Source: Rhodospirillaceae bacterium (GTDB lineage: Bacteria; Pseudomonadota; Alphaproteobacteria; Rhodospirillales; 2-02-FULL-58-16). Taken from it: a stretch of 11,470 bases of DNA. This document shows positions 2,257 to 11,427 of this stretch, in pieces (within the stretch, counting starts at the first letter, position 1; the number at the start of each line of letters is the position of its first letter). The position numbers and the translations under genes are program-made. The notes under the pieces are model-generated. The model was not told the DNA's origin and did no database searches. It saw only the letters and a program-made list of their open reading frames with translations. The stretch lies in contig JAUXMA010000018.1 in the NCBI GenBank assembly GCA_030623425.1, forward strand, positions 1-11,470. The letters are read 5' to 3'.

Positions 2257-2326
2257 ATGAAAATCAAATTAAAAAGGAAACAAATATCTCAGAGCCAATC
2301 CCCGCATTACGGAGCTTAATATTCAT

Positions 2327-2345
2327 ATGGTTACTATGATACCAT
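2327..2345. promoter_or_regulatory. palindrome covering the -10 box, candidate operator
   Basis: ATGGT-N9-ACCAT is a perfect 5-bp inverted repeat, 14 bp centre to centre. It straddles the predicted -10 of the minus-strand promoter. The size and place fit an operator for the divergent S24 repressor, but this is inference; short palindromes occur by chance in AT-rich DNA. Confidence 0.4.
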
Positions 2346-2364
2346 TAATCAACGTGAAAATCAA
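2336..2364 (-). promoter_or_regulatory. predicted sigma70 promoter of the small-protein operon
   Basis: Reading the minus strand: -35 TTGATT (2364-2359, four of six consensus bases), a 17-base spacer, and -10 TATCAT (2341-2336, five of six). A start of transcription near 2329 would give a leader of about 110 bases containing the terminator hairpin. Confidence 0.55.
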
Positions 2365-2382
2365 GTTTCGCTGTATGGATCA

Positions 2383-2411
2383 AGAATATTTAAAGAATAT
2401 TGAAATATTCT
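2383..2411. promoter_or_regulatory. three AGAATATT half-sites (direct plus inverted)
   Basis: AGAATATT occurs at 2383-2390 and 2394-2401, 11 bp apart (about one helical turn). Its exact inverse AATATTCT is at 2404-2411, so the last two form a perfect 18-bp palindrome (AGAATATT-GA-AATATTCT). It lies upstream of the minus-strand -35 box and between the two divergent genes. It could be a binding site for a dimeric regulator or an AT-rich promoter element. Confidence 0.45.
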
Positions 2412-2622
2412 GAACGATCGGTGAGATTTTATGAAATTTTCTTACCAATAACTATGGAATGATTTATATGGAGCATTTTAAGGTTGGTTAAGGCCGTCCC
2501 TCCCGCCGTCATTGCCGGGGGTGACGGGAAAGCGCGCCGATATAGGCGTGATGTCCGTATTTTATAAAAATTAATAATATATTCCTAGTGCAAAAAAACC
2601 CGCTTTATATGACCATGTTCCC

Positions 2623-3255
2623 ATGCTTACGCATTCGGACATTTGGCGGGCCATAGACCGCTTGGCTCGGGAACACGGATTTTCCGCCTCCGGACTCGCC
2701 AAGAAAGCCGGCCTCGACCCCACCACCTTCAACAAGAGCAAACGCATCACTCGCGAAGGCAAACTGCGTTGGCCCAGCACCGAGAGCGTATCCAAAATCC
2801 TCAAGGCCACGGAGGCCAGCCTGGGAGAGTTTATTTCCTATGTCGATGACGGCGAAAACATCGGGGTTTACCGCAACGTGCCGCTGATCGGGTTTGCCCA
2901 GGCGGCAGGGGATGGTTACTTCAACGTCGCCGGTCACCCGGCTGGCGCCTCCTGGGACGAGATTCCCTTCCCGGCCCTTGGCGATCCCCATGCCTACGCT
3001 TTGGAGATCGGCGGCAACAGCATGGAGCCGGTTTACCGGGACGGTGACATCATGGTCGTTTCGCCTCTTGCCAACATCCGCCGCGGCGACCGCGTGCTGG
3101 TGAGGACCATCGGCGGCGAAATAATGGCCAAGCAGCTGCGCCGGCGTTCAGCCCGCAAGATCGACCTCCTCTCGTTCAATCCCCTCGACGGCGATCGCAC
3201 CTTGAACGTCGAAGAAGTCGAGTGGATCGCTCGCATCGTCTGGGCCAGCCAGTAG
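2623..3255 (+). CDS. LexA/CI-like S24-family helix-turn-helix repressor
   Basis: 210-residue two-domain regulator. Residues about 3-70 form an XRE-type helix-turn-helix (GFSASGLAKKAGLDPTTFNKSK is the recognition part, rather unlike LexA itself). Residues 85-210 are an S24 peptidase-like domain. The catalytic dyad is complete: Ser133 in GNSMEP and Lys170 in IMAKQL. The spacing of 37 residues equals that of E. coli LexA (Ser119/Lys156). An Ala-Gly pair at 95-96 (QAAGDG) sits where self-cleavage occurs in the family. It probably represses the divergent small-protein operon and/or itself by binding in 2327-2411, possibly released on a stress signal; this is inference from position. No phage structural or integrase genes are nearby. 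Similar proteins are common as chromosomal regulators in alphaproteobacteria. The ATG at 2623 has no good Shine-Dalgarno and may be leaderless or weakly translated. Confidence 0.85.
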   Translation: MLTHSDIWRAIDRLAREHGFSASGLAKKAGLDPTTFNKSKRITREGKLRWPSTESVSKILKATEASLGEFISYVDDGENIGVYRNVPLIGFAQAAGDGYFNVAGHPAGASWDEIPFPALGDPHAYALEIGGNSMEPVYRDGDIMVVSPLANIRRGDRVLVRTIGGEIMAKQLRRRSARKIDLLSFNPLDGDRTLNVEEVEWIARIVWASQ

Positions 3256-3314
3256 TCCGGGATCTCCTTTCAGCTCCGCCTTAGGGATCGTCACAAAATA
3301 ACCGTGTCACTTCA

Positions 3315-3415
3315 CTTCCGTCGTCATGGCCGGACTTGATCCGGCCATCCACGGGCCTCACGCTCGGCATCAACCGCGTGGATACCCGGCTCAAGGCCGG
3401 GCATGACGACGGAAG
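3315..3415. repeat. large palindromic intergenic repeat
   Basis: Outer arms of 14 bases are perfect inverted copies (CTTCCGTCGTCATG at 3315-3328; CATGACGACGGAAG at 3402-3415). Inside are further arms (ATCCACG 3347-3353 with CGTGGAT 3376-3382) and GC-rich GGCCGG/CCGGCC stretches. The whole can fold as a long cruciform or hairpin of about 100 bases. The style (GTCATGGCCGG ... CCGGGCATGAC) is that of dispersed intergenic repeats common in alphaproteobacterial genomes. It sits between the repressor and the aminotransferase gene. Confidence 0.8.
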
Positions 3416-3515
3416 GGAGGATGGTGATTCATTTATTCTGTTACGGCCACTTAAAGCGCCGCCGCCGCCACGGCGCGCCACCGGTTGGCTGGCGCCAAGC
3501 CTGCTTATATGCTGT

Positions 3516-3536
3516 TTTTGCCGTTCCCCGGCAAAA
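3516..3536 (+). promoter_or_regulatory. hairpin in the aminotransferase 5' leader
   Basis: TTTTGCCG (3516-3523) and CGGCAAAA (3529-3536) form a perfect 8-bp stem with a 5-base loop, ending 13 bases before the ATG and just before the GGAAAG ribosome site. A TTATAT at 3505-3510 could be a -10 box. It may affect translation initiation; no leader peptide is seen. Confidence 0.35.
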
Positions 3537-3549
3537 CGGTGGAAAGACA

Positions 3550-4404
3550 ATGGCGAAAACAAACATCGGTAAGGGCCTGGTTTACGTCGATGGCCAATGG
3601 CGGCAAGGAAATCCCCGGGTTCTTGGGCCGAAAAGCCATGCCGTGTGGATGTCTTCCGTCGTCTTCGATGGCGCCCGGGCGTTTCAAGGCGTGGCGCCGG
3701 ACTTGGACCGGCATTGCGCCAGGGCGGTGCGCTCGGCCGAGTTCATGGGACTGGCGCCGGCGGTCGCCGGGCCTGAGATCGAGGAGCTGGCCTGGCAAGG
3801 CATCCGCATGTTTGCCGAGGAGGCGGAACTTTATATCTGCCCCTTGTTCTACGCCGAGAGCGGTTTCATCCTTCCCGATCCGGACAGCACGCGTTTCGTC
3901 TTGATGATTTCGGAATCGCCGTTGCCGCCCGCCGACGGCTTTGCCGCCTGCCTGTCCAGCTTCCGTCGGCCGGCCCCGGACATGGCGCCGACCGAGGCCA
4001 AGGCGTCCTGTCTATATCCTAACGTCGCCCGCGGCCTGCGCGAAGCCCAGGGCAAGGGCTTCGACGTGGCGGTGGTTCTCGACCCCGACGGCGATGTCGC
4101 CGAGTTTTCCTATGCCAACCTGTTCATGGCCAAGGAAGGAGTGCTGCATACGCCGGCCGCCAACGGCACTTTCCTCAACGGCATCACCCGGCAAAGGGTC
4201 GTCGCCCTGATGCGCGAAGCCGGCGTCGAGGTTCGGGAAAGAACCATCGGTTTCGGGGAACTTCTCGATGCCGACGAAATTTTCGGCACCGGCAACTACT
4301 ACAAGCTGTCTCCCTGCACCCGCATTGAAGACCGCGCCTTGCCGGCCGGGCCTTTGTTCAGGCAAGCGCGCCAACTTTATTTCGCCTTCGCCAAGCGCCG
4401 ATAA
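3550..4404 (+). CDS. ilvE: branched-chain amino acid aminotransferase (class IV PLP fold)
   Basis: 284-residue cytosolic enzyme of the class IV aminotransferase fold. It most likely catalyses transfer of the amino group between glutamate and the keto acids of Leu, Ile and Val, the last step of their synthesis. Visible signs: VYVDGQWRQGNPRVLGP and VVFDGARAF near the N-terminus; Lys151 in TEAKASCLYPN as the expected PLP Schiff-base lysine; Glu185 in DVAEFSYANLFM as the residue that holds the pyridine nitrogen; LNGITRQRV in the phosphate-binding loop; and a C-terminal GTGNYYKLSPCTRIEDR typical of alphaproteobacterial BCATs. The start at 3550 follows GGAAAG at a short distance; upstream in-frame ATGs run into the intergenic repeat and would add non-family residues. 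D-amino-acid aminotransferase and aminodeoxychorismate lyase share the fold, but the C-terminal motif favours BCAT. It stands alone, convergent with lysyl-tRNA synthetase. Confidence 0.88.
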   Translation: MAKTNIGKGLVYVDGQWRQGNPRVLGPKSHAVWMSSVVFDGARAFQGVAPDLDRHCARAVRSAEFMGLAPAVAGPEIEELAWQGIRMFAEEAELYICPLFYAESGFILPDPDSTRFVLMISESPLPPADGFAACLSSFRRPAPDMAPTEAKASCLYPNVARGLREAQGKGFDVAVVLDPDGDVAEFSYANLFMAKEGVLHTPAANGTFLNGITRQRVVALMREAGVEVRERTIGFGELLDADEIFGTGNYYKLSPCTRIEDRALPAGPLFRQARQLYFAFAKRR

Positions 4405-4417
4405 CCGCGGCGCGCCA

Positions 4418-6001
4418 CTAAGCGCCCAAGTCCTCCCCGGCGACGGCCCGGCGGATCAGGGCGATGGTCTCGTCGATCCCGTAAAGGGCGATGAACGTAC
4501 CCATGCGCGGCCCTTGGCTTTGTCCAAGAAGAATCTCGTAGAGCGCCCGGAACCAGGATTTGAGGTCGGCGAAGGGATGGCGTTTGCCGACCTCGTAAAC
4601 CTCGCTTTGGATGGTTTCGGCGGCGGCGTCCCGGGGCAGGGATCGCAGAGCCCGGGCCAGGTCTTCGAGCGCCACGGCCTCGTCTTTCGTGGCGGCACGG
4701 TATTTCTTCGCCGGCTTGACGAAACCTTGGTAATAGCTGATGGCGTATTCCACCAGCTTGTCCAGGATCGGCGCCCTTGCCGGCGTCGCTTGCGGGCGGT
4801 AGCGGGTGATGAAATGCCAAAGCACCGCCTTGTCCTCGGTATGGCAGACGCTGGCCAGGTTGAGGAGCATGCCGTAGCCGAGGTGGATGTCCTCTTGCGG
4901 CGGGCGGCCGCCATGGATATGCCAAAGGGGACTGTCCAGCCGCTTGCCGTCCGGCAACCCGGGGAATTGGGACAAATGGTTCAAGTAATCATCGACGGTG
5001 CGCGGAATGACGTCGAAATAGAGCCTTTTCGCCGCCTTCGGCTTGCCGTACATGAACAGCGCCAGGCTTTCCGGCGGCGCGTAGCGCAGCCACTCCTCGA
5101 CGGCGAGACCGTTGCCCCTGGATTTGGAAATCTTTTCGCCGTTCTCGTCCAAGAACAATTCGTAGGTGAACCCGACGGGAGGCGCGCCGCCGAGAATGCG
5201 GCAGATTTTCCCCGCCAATTTCACCGAATCGATCAGGTCCTTGCCCGACATCTCGTAATCGACGCCGAGCGCCGTCCAGCGCATCGCCCAGTCGACTTTC
5301 CATTGCAGTTTGCAATGGCCGCCGGTCACCGGCGTCGCGACCTTGGAGCCGTCTTCGTCCTCGTAGACGATGCTGCCGGCATCGACGTCGCGCTCTCTGA
5401 CCGGCGCTTGCAAAACCTTCCCCGTTTTGGCCGACAGCGGCAGGAAAGGGCTGTAGGTGGCGCGGCGCTCCGCTCCCAGCGTCGGTGCGATCACCTCGAC
5501 CACCTCGTCGTAGCGTTCCAGCACCTTCAGCAGGGTAGCGTCGAAAAGGCCGCTCTTGTAGCAATCGGTGGCGCTCTGGAATTGGTAATCGAAGGCGAAA
5601 TCGTCGAGGAAGCTCTTCAGCCGCTCGTTGTTGTGATGGCCGAAGCTTTCATGGCTGCCGAAGGGATCGGGAATCGAGGTCAGCGGCTTGCCCAGGTGTT
5701 GCGTCATCATCTCGCGGTTGGGGATGTTGTCGGGGACCTTGCGCAACCCGTCCATGTCGTCGGAGAAGGCGAACAGCCGGGTCGGAATGTCGGTAAGTGT
5801 CTCGAAGGCCCGGCGCACCATGGAGGTCCGCGCCACCTCGCCGAAGGTGCCGATATGGGGCAGGCCGGACGGCCCGTAGCCGGTCTCGAAAAGCACGTAG
5901 CCCTTTTCCGGGGTTTTGCCGCCAACGTGCTTGAGCAAGGCCCTGGCCTCGGTGAAAGGCCAGGCTTTGGCGTGACGGGCGTAATCGCGCTCCCGAGGCA
6001 T
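4418..6001 (-). CDS. lysK: lysyl-tRNA synthetase, class I
   Basis: 527-residue class I lysyl-tRNA synthetase, which charges tRNA-Lys with lysine. This archaeal-type enzyme replaces the class II LysS in many alphaproteobacteria, spirochaetes and most archaea. The HIGH signature appears as PHIG (residues 48-51, in [13 protein letters not shown]) and KMSKS as KISKS (290-294, in [13 protein letters not shown]). Other family marks are [13 protein letters not shown] (80-92) for substrate binding and [16 protein letters not shown] (228-242) before the KISKS loop, with a helical anticodon-binding region after about residue 370. Length is normal for the family. The gene is divergent from the HD-GYP gene (178 bases apart) and its 3' end lies 13 bases from the aminotransferase stop. 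Only the ATG at 6001 is needed for a complete N-terminus. Some annotations use the symbol lysS. Confidence 0.95.
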
Positions 6002-6179
6002 GGCGGTGGAACCTATGCCCGGCGGCGCCGGGCGTCAACCGGCAGCGCTCGCTTGCATTTTCATTTTGCGGGCGGCAACCGCCGCTCCGGTTGTTTTCGC
6101 GGACAAAGACCGATACCTTTTTCTCCGCTACTTTCAACGACGCCTGGGCGGGCTCTAAAGACAATTGAAAGGAACCACG
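6002..6179. other. divergent intergenic region
   Basis: 178 bases between the starts of lysyl-tRNA synthetase (minus) and the HD-GYP protein (plus). It should carry promoters for both. I see no clear consensus boxes, RNA gene or palindrome of note. GAAAGGA at 6167-6173 is the ribosome site that fixes the downstream ATG at 6180. Confidence 0.5.
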
Positions 6180-7979
6180 ATGGCGGGTCAAGCCAAGAAA
6201 ACATCTCGGGACGACGATACCCAGAGTTTCGAAAAGCTGATCGAAATCGGCATCGCCCTTTCGGCCGAACGCGATCACCACCGCCTCATGGAAAGGATTC
6301 TGCTGGAGGCGATGAACATATACAACGCCGACGGCGGCGCTCTTTACCTCTGTACCGAGGACGACCTCCTGAAATTCGAGATCATGCGGACGAATTCCCT
6401 GAACGTCGCCTTGGGCGGCACCACCGGCAAGGAGATTCCCTTTCCGCCGCTGGTCATGCGCGATAAGAAAACGGGTGAGCCCAACCACGCAAACGTCTGC
6501 ACCCACGTCGCCCTCTCCGGCATAACCGTCAATATTGCCGATGCCTACGAGGCCGGGGACTTCGATTTCTCGGGAACCAAGAAATTCGACGAGGGAACCG
6601 GATACAGGTCCAAGTCGTTCCTGACGCTGGCGCTGAAAAACCACGAGGGCGACGTGATCGGCGTCCTGCAACTGCTCAACGCGCTTGACAGAAAAACCGG
6701 CGAGGTCATTCCCTTCGGCGCCGAACTCCAACCCCTGATCGAGGCCCTGTCCTCGCAAGCGGCGGTGGCGCTGGACAACCAGTTGCTGTTGGAGGCGCAA
6801 AGGAAACTGACGGATTCCTTTATCGAATTGATCGCCTCGGCGATCGACGCGAAATCCCCTTACACCGGCGGCCATTGCCAGCGGGTTCCGGAACTGAGCA
6901 TGATGCTGGCCAATGCCGCCTGTCGGTCCGAGGAGCCGGTTTTTCAGGATTTCGACCTCAACGAGGAAGAACGTTACGAATTTCACATCGGGTCTTGGCT
7001 GCACGATTGCGGCAAGGTGACGACGCCGGAATACGTCGTCGACAAGGCGACCAAACTGGAAACCATCTACGATCGCATCCACGAGGTCAGAACCCGTTTC
7101 GAGGTCGCCAAGCGGGAAGTGGAAATCAAATATTATAAAGCCTTGCTCGCCGGCGCCGGCGAACCCGAAAAGTTGAAAAACGATATGGAAGGCCGCCTGG
7201 CCGAGCTGGATGACGATTTCGCCTTCATCGCCGAATGCAACCTCGGCGGTGAATTCATGGATCCGGAAAAGAGCGACCGCATCAAGATAATCGCCGACCT
7301 GAAATGGACGCGAACCCTGGACGACCGGCTCGGCGTCGGCCACGAGGAGCTGAAACGCAAAAGCCGGGCCCCCCTGAAAGACCTTCCCGTCGAGGAAAAC
7401 ATGCTCGCCGACAAGGAAGAACACATTATCCATCGGCAAGGCGTCGACACGCTCGCCGCCAACGAAGCATACGGTTTCAAGCTCGACGTGCCGGAGCACA
7501 AATACAATCGGGGCGAAATCACCAACCTTTGCATTCCCCGCGGCACCCTGACGGCGGAGGAGCGGTTCAAGATCAACGAACACATCGTGCAGACCATCGT
7601 CATGCTGGAGCAGCTTCCGTTCCCGAAACACCTGAAGCGGGTTCCCGAATACGCCGGCGGCCACCACGAGACGATGATCGGCACCGGCTATCCGCGCAAG
7701 CTCGGCAAGGCCGACATGTCCATTCCCGCCCGCATCATGGCCGTCGCCGACATCTTCGAGGCCCTGACCGCCGCCGACCGCCCTTACAAGAAGGCCAAGA
7801 CGCTGAGCGAAAGCATCCGCATCCTGTCCTTCATGAAAAAGGATCAACACATCGACGCCGACCTTTTCGATCTGTTCCTCAAGTCCGGGGTCTACAGAAA
7901 ATACGCCGAAAAGTTCCTTAAACCCGAGCAGATCGACGATGTCGACATCGCTCGGTATGTCGGTACCGGCGGCGGGTGA
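6180..7979 (+). CDS. GAF / HD-GYP domain protein, probable cyclic-di-GMP phosphodiesterase
   Basis: 599-residue cytosolic signalling protein with no TM segment. Residues about 16-205 form a GAF sensor domain ([21 protein letters not shown] through [11 protein letters not shown]). The rest is an HD-GYP hydrolase that would degrade the second messenger cyclic di-GMP. Metal-binding residues are present: His232 (GHCQRV), His275-Asp276 (HDCGK), His468 (INEHIV), His495-His496 ([13 protein letters not shown]) and Asp524 ([10 protein letters not shown]); GYP is at 503-505. Unusually, about 165 residues (roughly 291-455, charged, with coiled-coil-like and Asp/Glu-rich parts) are inserted between HDCGK and the next ligand His. 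In ordinary HD-GYP proteins the spacing is about 28. The usual HHExxDGxGYP is [11 protein letters not shown], so the Asp is replaced by Ile. The ATG at 6180 has GAAAGGA six bases upstream. The stop overlaps a GTG of the next gene, so the two probably form an operon. Confidence 0.9.
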
Positions 7980-7996
7980 TCCGGCTCGCGTTGGCG

Positions 7997-8719
7997 ATGA
8001 ACGACGATCTTCTTCACCGCGCCAAGGCCTACCCCTACCGAATACCCGAGCGATCATATCTTCTCGCCAACGGGCGGCAGGAAACAGCGGAAAACTTTTC
8101 CTTGCCGGAGTTGTCATGCCGCCGGCCGGTGCTCGCTTGCGGCTGCAACCAGTCGCCGGAACGGCTGGCGCTGAAGTTCGCCAACATCGACGGCGGGCCG
8201 ATCCCGGTGATCCGGGTTTGGCTGCAGGATTACGACGTTGTCTATTCCGCCCATTTCACCGCTTACGGCTCGATCCCGGCGACCCTGCAATATTCCCCCG
8301 GCACCACCGTCTTCCTTTTCGTCGCCTGGTTGACGGCCGGCGAGCAAAACCGCCTGCACCAAACCGAGAGCGTTGGCCTGAATTATGACTTTGGGCGGCT
8401 CGACGGCATCGAGATGGGGATGGATGGCGGCGCCGTTCTCGACCGGGTTTTCGTTTACCTGAGCCGCCGCGGATGCCTGCTTCAAAATGACGCTCCCATC
8501 GCCCTTGCCGCCATCAAGGCGGAAGGACGGAAATGGCCGGCCCTGACCGAGGAACAGATCCTCGGCCTTGCCCGGGACTACCTGGAGCCCGGCGTTCCGC
8601 TCGATGATTTTATCTTAGCGGCCCTCGCCGACGAAGACCTTCGCCGGGCCCGCGGCGACGCCCTGGAAAAGCATGAACGGCCCTTCGCCCACCCGGCGTT
8701 CACTCCCATCGCCGTTTGA
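7997..8719 (+). CDS. conserved protein with gamma-glutamylcyclotransferase-like motif
   Basis: 240-residue soluble protein of unknown role, conserved in alphaproteobacteria as far as I recognise. It opens with MNDDLLHRAKAYPYRIPERSYLL. The segment PVLACGCNQSPERLALKF resembles the YGSN...L nucleotide/substrate loop of the gamma-glutamylcyclotransferase fold, though Tyr-Gly-Ser-Asn is here Cys-Gly-Cys-Asn. After that come VVYSAHFTAYGSIPATL and PGTTVFLFVAWLT, consistent with the beta strands of that fold. The C-terminus (WPALTEEQILGLARDYLEPGVPLDDFILAAL) is helical and specific to this family. A GTG at 7976 overlaps the upstream TGA and would add seven residues (MIRLALA); I prefer the ATG at 7997 because family-like sequence begins there. 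Co-transcribed with the HD-GYP gene. Enzymatic activity is not established. Confidence 0.75.
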   Translation: MNDDLLHRAKAYPYRIPERSYLLANGRQETAENFSLPELSCRRPVLACGCNQSPERLALKFANIDGGPIPVIRVWLQDYDVVYSAHFTAYGSIPATLQYSPGTTVFLFVAWLTAGEQNRLHQTESVGLNYDFGRLDGIEMGMDGGAVLDRVFVYLSRRGCLLQNDAPIALAAIKAEGRKWPALTEEQILGLARDYLEPGVPLDDFILAALADEDLRRARGDALEKHERPFAHPAFTPIAV

Positions 8720-9162
8720 AGCTCGCGCTAGGCCATGTACTCATAAATAACGCCCCGTAATCAGACGATAGCTTACCGCACCGATGTCCCCGCACCGATG
8801 TTAGCTCAAGCGTCTGAAAGCAGACCTCCGGCGGAGCTCCCGTCACTTCCGGGTATAGCCACAAACGGTCATTCCACCCTTTATCCGTTCCCCTACACGG
8901 CTGATCGCTCGGTCCACCGTTCCCCGAGGCGCGATCTTCAGCTGTCATCGGGCCCAGTCTGAGGAGTCATCTGGGAAGAATGTCCATTGAAAGGTTACGG
9001 GGGGGTCCTATATAGGAAAAAGTGAGAATGCAACTGCTAATCAATATTAATTAGGTTGTGATCCTTGGGCGGTTTGTTTAGAGTCTTCCCCGTCGGAGGA
9101 CTGCATTTTGCAAAGGTCTCCAAGCCACATGGAAGCCGGTCATTAAGCCTCAAGGAGCACCC
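8720..9162. other. gene-poor stretch upstream of the kinase fragment
   Basis: 443 bases with no coding region I can support. A minus-strand open frame of 82 codons (8700-8948) has no recognisable domain and no good ribosome site. Small features: GCACCGATGT twice (8778-8787, 8792-8801), the 10-bp palindrome CCTATATAGG (9007-9016), and an AT-rich patch (9035-9058) with CTAAT/ATTAG arms. These may belong to the promoter region of the gene at 9163. No tRNA or known RNA is seen. Confidence 0.45.
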
Positions 9163-9687
9163 ATGGGTGCCGTCAAGTCCCAAGATTTGAATTCGGAGCA
9201 AGACGTATCCGCCGTCGCGCCGGCGGGCAGCATGGAGAGCCGACTGCGCGAGAGCAAGGCGCATCTTGAGAAAATCCTCGAAACGCTGGTCGATGGCATC
9301 ATCACCATCGACGAACGGGGCATTATCCAGCTGGCAAACCCCGCCGCCGAGCGCATCTTCGGCTATGCCAAGGACACGCTGGTGGGCAAGAGTGTGAGCC
9401 TTTTGATGTCCGGACCGGACCGCTCCGCCCATGACGGGTATTTGGCCAAATACCTGAAGACCGGCCAGGCCAACATCATCGGGTTCGGTCGCGAGGTCCT
9501 GGGGCAGCGCAAGGACGGCAGCACATTTCCCCTGGAGCTGGCCATCTCCGAGCTGCAGACCGAGCATGGGCGCCTGTTCACCGGCATCACCCGCGACGTG
9601 AGCGAGCGCAAGCAGGCGGAGGCGGAGATCCGGCAGGCCAACGAGATCCTTACCGAATACGCCTATGCCGTCAGGGCAATCGACTGA
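9163..9687 (+). pseudogene. sensor histidine kinase with FixL-like PAS domain, truncated by an IS
   Basis: Only the first 170 codons are native; the last four (RAID) and the stop come from the left end of the IS. Residues 29-145 form one PAS domain: a short helix, then ILETLVDGIITIDERGIIQ, AAERIFGYAKDTLVGK, and RKDGSTFPLELAISE. His90 (DRSAHDGY) and Arg110 (IIGFGRE) are 20 residues apart, just as the haem-ligand His200 and Arg220 of Bradyrhizobium FixL, so haem or oxygen sensing is possible. The same pair also occurs in PAS domains not shown to bind haem. ERKQAEAEIRQANEILTEYAYAV then leads into what in this kinase family is usually SHDLKAPL, the phospho-acceptor box; here the IS begins instead. 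AAGGAG at 9152-9157 supports the ATG at 9163. The remnant has no output domain. It could still be made as a PAS-only protein. Confidence 0.8.
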
Positions 9688-9688
9688 A
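9672..9688 (+). repeat. left terminal inverted repeat of the IS
   Basis: CAGGGCAATCGACTGAA, identical to the inverse of 10911-10927. It supplies the in-frame TGA (9685-9687) that now ends the kinase fragment. Confidence 0.93.
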
Positions 9689-9727
9689 CGCTGGTGACGG
9701 AAAATTAACGATGATGTGATTCGAAGT

Positions 9728-9746
9728 CTCCATGTCAACCATGGAG
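9728..9746. repeat. small hairpin at the transposase start
   Basis: CTCCATG (9728-9734) and CATGGAG (9740-9746) form a perfect 7-bp stem with loop TCAAC. It contains two in-frame ATGs and ends in the GGAG that serves the start at 9753. It could hide the ribosome site and keep transposase translation low, as in other IS elements. Confidence 0.5.
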
Positions 9747-9752
9747 GCGACG

Positions 9753-10905
9753 ATGTCTGTTGATTTTGAAGGTATTGATTTTCTTGAGCATTTTTCTGGT
9801 CTTGACGATCCCCGCCAGGAAGGGAAAGTGCTTTATCCGCTTGATGAGATTCTGCTGTTGACCCTGATTGCGGTCCTGGGCCTGCCCTCCGTACAACTTC
9901 GGGAGGCGGGCGGTGCCGAGGGTTGGGTGGATGTGGCGTTTTTCGGCCAACGGAATTGGATTTTCTGCGCCGTTTTCTCCCTTACGAGCACGCCACGCCA
10001 TCTCACGACCAGCTTGGAAACGTGTTTGCGGCCTTGGATGCCGAGCGGTTCCAGCGCTGTTTCATCGCCTGGGTCGAGGCGGTTCACGAGGCCTGCGCGG
10101 GTGTGCTCGCCATCGACGGCAAGACGTTGCGGCGCTCTTTTGATCGCGCCGGCGGGAGGGCAGCGATCGACATAATTTCGGCCTGGAGTTCGAGCCAGGG
10201 GCTTGTCCCGGGCCAGCGCAAGGTGGACGACAAATCCAACGGGATCACGGCGATCCCCGAACTGCTCGACCTGCTGACGCTGAACGGCGCCATCGTCACT
10301 ATCGACGCCATGGGCTGCCAGAAGGAAATCGCCGCCAAGATCGTCCATAAGAAGGCCGATTACGTGCTCGCCCTGAAGGGCAACCAAGGCACTCCGCGCG
10401 AGGACGTGGAACTCTTCTTCAGCGAACGGGAAACGCGGGATTTCGCCTATGCCAAGGTCCACCGCCACAGCACGACGGAAAAGGACCATGGCCGCCCGGA
10501 GGTTCGGGAATATACCGTTTGCGGCGATATCCAACGGCTGCGCGAGCGCCATCCATGGGCCGAATTGAACAGCTTCGTCATGGTTCGGTCCAGGCGCGAG
10601 ATCGGCGGTGAAATACAAACGCAAACCCGCTTCCACATCTCGTCGCTCGCCCCGACGCGCCCGCCATCGCCAAGGCCATACGACAACATTGGGGCGTCGA
10701 AAACGGACTGCACTGGGTCATGGACGTGGTCTTCCGCGACGACGAATGCCGGATCAGAAAGAAAAACTCTCCGGCCAACTTCGCCACCGTCAAACACATG
10801 GCCAGCGACCTCTTGCGCGCCGCCCCCCATAAACATAGCCTCAGGCTCAAACGAAAGCTCGCAGGGTGGGATGACCAGTTCATCTACGAAGTCATTACCG
10901 CATGA
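9753..10905 (+). pseudogene. ISAs1-family transposase with two frameshifts
   Basis: DDE transposase that would cut and join the ends of this IS. The coding information lies in three frames. From 9753 (GGAG at 9743-9746 upstream) to about 9953 it reads FLEHFSGLDDPRQEGKVLYP and the ILLLTLIAVLG helix. A one-base loss near 9953-9956 (cggaattgg, expected an extra A) moves it to the frame LDFLRRFLPYEHATPSHDQL. A second one-base loss near 10648-10654 moves it to the frame GVENGLHWVMDVVFRDDECR, ending VITA and stop. Catalytic residues are still there: Asp at 10115 (AIDGKTLRRS), Asp at 10304 (IDAMGCQ) and Glu at 10699 (GVENGLHW). About nine extra codons (LPSVQLREA, around 9883-9912) are inserted compared with the usual family sequence. 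Two shifts at different sites without slippery runs point to decay rather than programmed frameshifting. Sequencing error is an alternative. Confidence 0.85.
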
Positions 10906-10910
10906 AAACC

Positions 10911-10927
10911 TTCAGTCGATTGCCCTG
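10911..10927 (-). repeat. right terminal inverted repeat of the IS
   Basis: Inverse of CAGGGCAATCGACTGAA, 17 of 17 identical to the left end. It is followed directly by a run of seven further G residues outside or at the border of the element. Confidence 0.93.
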
Positions 10928-10963: not shown

Positions 10964-11013
10964 GGGGAATATGGGCTTGATGCTCGCAGATAAAAACTGC
11001 GGAGAGTATTCTC

Positions 11014-11427
11014 ATGGTAGGAACTGAAGCAGCCGCGGCAAAAGCCGCTACGATAGGCAAGGGTGCGGCAACCGGAGCCTTGGCCCCCATGGCCGAGGTT
11101 GAGCTTGAGGGCGTTCGCCAGGCGTTAACCGCCAAGAGCGCCCCTGTAGTAAAGGCCGCCGGAGCAAAGGGCGTTGCTGGCGCCGCGGCGGGAAAGGCGG
11201 CGACCGTAACCGGGGCGTCCGCGAAATCGGGCGCGGCGAAATCGTTATTGTTCGGTGGCAGTTCAGGAACCATCTGGACCGGAAAAGGGCTAAGCCTCGG
11301 TCTCGGCCTTGGCCTCGGCGCCTGGGGGCCAATTCTGCTGGTTGCCGGCGGCGTCGCGGGGTGGTACGCCTATAAGAAATGTTCCAAGCATTACAAGACA
11401 AAGGTGCTGGACGAACCGTCGATCTGA
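11014..11427 (+). CDS. Mms6/MamD-like magnetosome membrane protein
   Basis: 137-residue protein. The N-terminal 75 residues are Ala/Lys/Gly/Thr-rich and of low complexity (many AAAAKAA-type stretches). Then SSGTIWTGKGLSLGLGLG and LGAWGPILLVAGG (about 84-113) form the Leu-Gly-repeat transmembrane segment shared by the magnetosome crystal-shaping proteins Mms6, MamD (Mms7) and MamG. GTIWTGKGL and GLGAWGP are very close to Mms6 as I remember it. Such proteins sit in the magnetosome membrane and influence magnetite size and shape. The length is like the Mms6 precursor, but the C-terminus (YKKCSKHYKTKVLDEPSI) is mainly basic and lacks the acidic, iron-binding tail known for Mms6, so I give no symbol. 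GGAGAG (11001-11006) lies seven bases before the ATG. It follows the IS by 86 bases and may begin a magnetosome operon continuing to the right. Confidence 0.82.
   Translation: MVGTEAAAAKAATIGKGAATGALAPMAEVELEGVRQALTAKSAPVVKAAGAKGVAGAAAGKAATVTGASAKSGAAKSLLFGGSSGTIWTGKGLSLGLGLGLGAWGPILLVAGGVAGWYAYKKCSKHYKTKVLDEPSI

Follow-up and report, generated by a model that had tools for sequence, protein, structure and literature searches.

The window analysed here, a stretch of 11,470 nucleotides from a Rhodospirillaceae bacterium (GenBank assembly GCA_030623425.1, contig JAUXMA010000018.1), is the entire contig C244 of a draft genome (G000) of 2.0 Mb, which is split into 392 contigs and is 90% complete. 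Close to its right end it carries an intact gene for a Leu-Gly (LG-rich) protein of the magnetosome type, and to the left of this gene lie an ISAs1-type insertion sequence (IS) and a PAS-domain sensor gene (Table 1). The contig ends 43 bases past the Leu-Gly gene. The initial annotation of this DNA had described GTIWTGKGLSLGLGLG together with LGAWGP in an Ala-rich protein of 137 amino acids (aa), and both segments are present as claimed. In the structure model the long helix of this protein reaches a mean predicted local distance difference test (pLDDT) score of 79 for aa 101-110, 89 for aa 111-120 and 76 for aa 121-130.

Table 1. Features at the right end of the window (positions within the 11,470-nucleotide stretch).
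Feature	Position	Strand	Remarks
Synteny breakpoint against contig C73 of the same-genus genome G001	8727..8728		collinearity ends
PAS-domain sensor	9163..9687	+	coding sequence runs into left IS end
ISAs1-type insertion sequence	9672..10927	+	identical 17-bp ends
Shine-Dalgarno-like GGAGAG	11001..11006	+	7 bases before ATG, read from sequence
Leu-Gly magnetosome-type protein gene	11014..11427	+	137 aa, ATG start, frame intact
Ala-rich N-terminal domain, aa 1-84	11014..11265	+	mostly low-confidence/disordered in structure model
GTIWTGKGLSLGLGLGLGAWGP core, aa 85-106	11266..11331	+	Leu-Gly core, toward C-terminus
Predicted single long helix, aa 102-131, taken as membrane segment	11317..11406	+	structure model
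Tail KKCSKHYKTKVLDEPSI, aa 121-137	11374..11424	+	occupies place of acidic Mms6 tail; final residues recur in relatives

Three magnetosome protein families of NCBIfam match the window protein: MamD (NF040916; E value 3.8e-14, 52.6 bits, cut-off 100) over profile positions 175-301 of 318, Mms6 (NF040917; 2.3e-13, 50.7 bits, cut-off 200), and MamG (NF040985; 1.3e-7, 31.8 bits, cut-off 100), the last of these limited to residues 36-122 of the protein. The initial annotation had proposed a profile search against just these families, and the only unrelated rival to emerge from NCBIfam up to an E value of 1 was a permease family (0.038); a Pfam search of the protein gave no match. A database of 5.8 billion proteins yielded 107 homologues at E <= 0.001, and the precomputed tag PF28196 is attached to every one of them (107/107). 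Most of these are unnamed, while the named ones belong to Magnetococcales, Magnetospirillum, Magnetovibrio, Paramagnetospirillum, Magnetofaba, Gammaproteobacteria and a Rhodospirillaceae metagenome-assembled genome. The protein P0001, of 135 aa, is 91% identical to the window protein. An LG-rich motif is common to Mms6, MamG and MamD, according to PMC3197154. The family matches and the homologues thus support the initial assignment to a Leu-Gly magnetosome-type protein: with its core followed by a predicted membrane segment, and its occurrence in genomes with mam genes, the window protein is a member of the LG-rich magnetosome proteins.

Its likeness to the individual members is uneven. The Leu-Gly core is shared with MamD (Mms7), but at 137 aa the window protein does not cover the whole 318-position profile. 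MamG is likewise a short Leu-Gly membrane protein; its setting, however, is mamGFDC, and mamF, mamD and mamC were not seen on the window contig. Mms6 has the Ala-rich N-terminus, the Leu-Gly core, the one predicted membrane segment and the small size in common with it, whereas the acidic, magnetite-interacting tail of Mms6 is replaced by a basic tail ending in VLDEPSI. Uncharacterised proteins of Magnetovibrio blakemorei (P0051) and Magnetovibrio sp. PR-2 (P0108) combine the Leu-Gly core with a DAPSI or DAPTI C-terminal ending, yet differ in an N-terminus of another kind, near GKSxAxxNxMADxLExxADxKA.

Magnetosome genes are present on other contigs of the same genome. Contig C154 carries mamQRBST (MamQ, MamB, MamS and MamT above the NCBIfam cut-offs, MamR below), with two magnetochrome motifs in MamT, one of them above its cut-off; C220 carries mamKLMN (MamK, MamM and MamN above, MamL below). 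An Mms6-like protein with an acidic tail, under its cut-off, and a second MamK, above it, are encoded on C122, and two MamD proteins above the cut-off lie on C154 and C304. Since mam genes are found on these four contigs, the host genome has a magnetosome gene set, and their absence from the genome, named initially as the result that would contradict the annotation, was not what we observed. As to the claim that the host is magnetotactic, what is shown is the gene content of a draft genome; the cells themselves may be magnetic.

Leu-Gly proteins, sought with a profile built from ten relatives, occur in at least 36 of the 297 genomes of the order, a lower bound because the homology searches missed the Leu-Gly gene of C122, which was found by reading the contig. 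MamB above cut-off was present in 32/297 genomes, and 31 of these are also Leu-Gly-positive (31/36 Leu-Gly genomes). The five Leu-Gly genomes without MamB are G001, G082, G164, G287 and G289, and four of them have a magnetochrome domain above cut-off; in G164 there is none, and its Leu-Gly match is weak (24.8 bits). In total, 35 of the 36 Leu-Gly genomes have MamB or a magnetochrome domain above cut-off. G026 has MamB above cut-off and a magnetochrome domain but gave no Leu-Gly match; a genome with mam genes may thus lack Leu-Gly proteins, or the search may have missed them. The initial statement that the segment is found only in magnetotactic bacteria proved too strong, since Rhodovastum atsumiense is non-magnetotactic and has two mms6-like genes, as stated in PMC9938234.

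We also inspected the surroundings of the nearest counterparts in relatives. In G024, MamM is encoded about 1.6 kb and MamB about 6.5 kb away; in G044, MamM lies about 1.5 kb away and, further out, there is a MamO-like gene that stays under its cut-off; and in G110, MamD is about 2.4 kb away, and MamC and MamH are no more than 6 kb from the Leu-Gly gene. All these MamB, MamM, MamD, MamC and MamH neighbours are above their cut-offs. Against a general linkage to the island, however, stands the Leu-Gly gene of G001, which lies downstream of a gene like the dihydroorotase gene of host contig C265, and at the equivalent spot the host has a Leu-Gly remnant without a start. Thus, the Leu-Gly genes of this genus are not all in the cluster. 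The remnant corresponds to positions 3-83 of locus L087 (C265) and the G001 gene to 8716-9093 of locus L026 (contig C95), where the sequence departs abruptly from the Leu-Gly repeat near the contig end.

Taken together, we consider that the host, which has a magnetosome gene set, probably uses the window gene to make a small Leu-Gly protein of the magnetosome membrane, akin to Mms6, MamD and MamG. More precisely, it would be a variant Mms6-like crystal-growth protein whose tail may serve for docking or sorting. PMC11332177 divides Mms6 into an N-terminal domain, a Leu-Gly repeat, a membrane segment and an acidic magnetite-interacting component, and the window protein has layout counterparts of the first three. 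The same paper reports that in strain AMB-1, Mms6 deprived of its acidic tail kept its magnetosome localisation (with a slightly more diffuse signal) and the magnetic response, that the Leu-Gly region appears to be required for membrane localisation, and that the N-terminus controls conditional localisation, for which mamE, mamO and mamM are required. As the acidic tail was dispensable there, a protein without it could still work, and from these results a membrane-packing, crystal-growth role independent of iron binding by the tail may be proposed. In such a mechanism the Ala-rich N-terminus would keep the protein soluble or delay its entry into the magnetosome, the Leu-Gly and helix part would insert or pack in the magnetosome membrane and affect how the crystals grow in it. 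The short C-terminal peptide would not bind iron but would dock to another magnetosome protein or act as a sorting mark.

Several observations weigh against this interpretation. The MamD, Mms6 and MamG scores are all under the curated cut-offs, although the C122 protein, which does have an acidic tail, is also below that of Mms6 (65.3 versus 200 bits). Low-complexity sequence inflates the similarity outside the Leu-Gly core, and the structure model is poor outside the helix, with a mean pLDDT of 52.8 and a predicted template modelling score (pTM) of 0.25 overall. Moreover, an earlier study by Yamagishi et al., as cited in PMC11332177, reported that Mms6 was missing from magnetosomes once parts of its acidic tail had been deleted. 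Finally, of ten proteins with the ending discussed below, five carry a net positive charge behind the helix and five are neutral there, so the word basic describes the window protein and not the whole group. Because it lacks the acidic tail and all its scores are below the cut-offs, we regard the window protein as a relative of Mms6, MamD and MamG and not strictly as any of them.

The tail is the part in which the window protein departs from Mms6. Of the 155 positions of the Mms6 profile, its alignment covers none beyond 136 (residue 123 of the protein). The Mms6-like protein on C122, in contrast, aligns up to position 155 and ends in SDEEIELADALAGER. The tail of the window protein has a net charge of +3 and ends in KVLDEPSI. 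Endings that fit the pattern [DE][AE]P[ST][IF] were present in 12 of the Leu-Gly proteins found here (nine of 159 database proteins, the window protein and the counterparts in G044 and G024), and in 11 of the 12 the motif stands at the last residue, the G024 protein having it five residues inside. The second database search, which raised the database count to these nine of 159, scored only the 7990 candidates sharing most words; its seed alignment was rich in this ending, and the search is hence biased in its favour. After removal of open reading frames (ORFs) that run off a locus end and of duplicates judged by their last 60 residues, 153 Leu-Gly proteins remained, with ten [DE][AE]P[ST][IF] (nine of them at the last residue, the tenth being that of G024), 48 WP-type, 21 GFY-type, 30 other acidic and 44 other tails. 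A second recurring ending is WPF, which many Leu-Gly proteins, among them P0017-P0019, P0038 and named Magnetococcales proteins, carry in a basic tail, either as the final residues or close to them. Of 421 codon-scored ORFs in the loci examined, a single one has the motif at its end; it belongs to the Leu-Gly proteins counted above, and many Leu-Gly ORFs are missing from that set owing to low scores. Among the openly accessible papers listed by searches on the ending, Mms6, MamD and magnetosome proteins, none describes the ending in its title or at the beginning of its abstract.

The usual picture of Mms6 is that of an acidic protein that binds iron. Of 151 Leu-Gly proteins (two of the 153, having no GP, were excluded), however, 72 have a positive, 17 a zero and 62 a negative net charge behind the helix; this set came from searches with the window protein and includes many Magnetococcales relatives; the acidic tail is therefore one among several. 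At least two different N-termini are combined with the [DE][AE]P[ST][IF] ending. Most of its carriers have the motif near GKSxAxxNxMADxLExxADxKA, which is absent in the window protein, P0001 and P0004. P0004, ending in DAPTI, and P0119, with an acidic ending, share the N-terminus MAELEG.AL.KALA (0/1000 shuffles reach the score). Compared with shuffled sequences, the N-terminus of the window protein gave z scores of 4.5 against the Mms6-like protein of C122, 4.0 against that of G001 and 7.0 against the acidic-tailed P0005. However, other Leu-Gly N-termini among the 151 scanned, including P0002 with the same ending, also reached z 3-5, and a clear Mms6-type origin of this N-terminus was therefore not established.

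The ending may be a docking or sorting peptide, and as a five-residue element that recurs with different N-termini it makes a small, directly testable candidate signal. A broader proposal, which we offer only tentatively and consider rather unlikely in its full form, is that Leu-Gly proteins are modular, with exchangeable C-terminal peptides (acidic, WPF-, GFYP- or DEPSI-ending), and that DEPSI is a docking or sorting signal instead of an iron-binding tail, read by a magnetosome protein such as a PDZ-bearing protease of the MamE/MamO type. That a MamE or MamO PDZ domain reads the ending is a conjecture by analogy with general PDZ biology. A simpler explanation, which deserves serious attention even if we do not favour it, would be an ordinary, fast-evolving Mms6/MamG paralogue whose ending reflects nothing more than common descent and serves no separate purpose. 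It would fit with tails that vary and fall into groups such as the WP- and GFY-types (48 and 21 of the 151 proteins), with the low complexity of N-terminus and linker, with the five further residues after the motif in G024, and with P0109, which has the usual N-terminus of the group but no more than a loose ADAPP, placed within a longer tail. Yet a comparison of the window protein with P0001 shows VL[DE]EPSI conserved behind a stretch that has changed in both residues and length, and common descent accounts less readily for one ending with at least two kinds of N-terminus, or for the different tails of P0004 and P0119 behind the same N-terminus.

The genomic position of the gene was examined for signs of a magnetosome island. 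Positions 3450-8727 of the window are collinear with contig C73 of G001 at 93.5% identity, and the match ends 8 bases past the stop codon that ends at 8719; to the right follow the PAS-sensor gene, the IS and the Leu-Gly gene. As the match stops at 8727, the rearranged boundary begins at about this point, and the comparison makes a boundary at about 8727/8728 likely, to the left of the IS and not near or right of it as initially annotated. A boundary at a tRNA or a known RNA family was rejected, as none was found in the window. The break fits the initial suggestion that the window reaches an island, but no second mam gene was found on the contig in the ORF list or among Pfam and NCBIfam matches, and its last 110 bases gave no end overlap with the rest of the assembly. 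Thus, the linkage of the gene to a magnetosome island is unproven.

The transposase of the IS is legible only as three pieces in three frames, and no target duplication was seen. Since the assembly contains one full copy (two other matches cover 30 and 34 bases), the IS was rejected as a collapsed multi-copy repeat. The position next to a degenerate IS at a synteny break, together with the start-less Leu-Gly sequence beside the dihydroorotase gene of C265, would suit a relic that IS-mediated rearrangement has left outside the magnetosome cluster and that has lost its function; however, the frame is intact and has a ribosome-binding site, and the 91% identical P0001 exists elsewhere, which makes a relic improbable. 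A chimeric or misbinned contig, with the gene coming from elsewhere in the genome or from another magnetotactic bacterium, appears similarly doubtful: in its favour, a target duplication is lacking around the IS, and the PAS gene, cut at the left of the IS, has no visible continuation on the other side, but only one full IS copy is present and base composition is alike to the right of the IS (0.595), in the left flank (0.59) and on four mam contigs (0.591-0.615).

Some further observations concern the other contigs and the left part of the window. On C122 (L086, positions 271-783 and 2296-3369) the second MamK, scoring 518.9 bits, lies beside the Mms6-like gene and thus off the mamKLMN contig. 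Between mamT and mamD on C154 (L004, positions 3437-6942) we found genes for a protein kinase, a PP2C-type phosphatase, a PHA_gran_rgn protein and a 306-aa protein that has no match in Pfam and was read as von Willebrand factor A (vWA)-type. In G110, ORFs resembling the C154 306-aa protein, the kinase and a 99-aa protein were seen by eye near the Leu-Gly genes, which perhaps points to a signalling module tied to magnetosomes. In the window itself, an ORF of low coding score on the reverse strand (positions 986-1282) contains a short tandem MSGRGV repeat.
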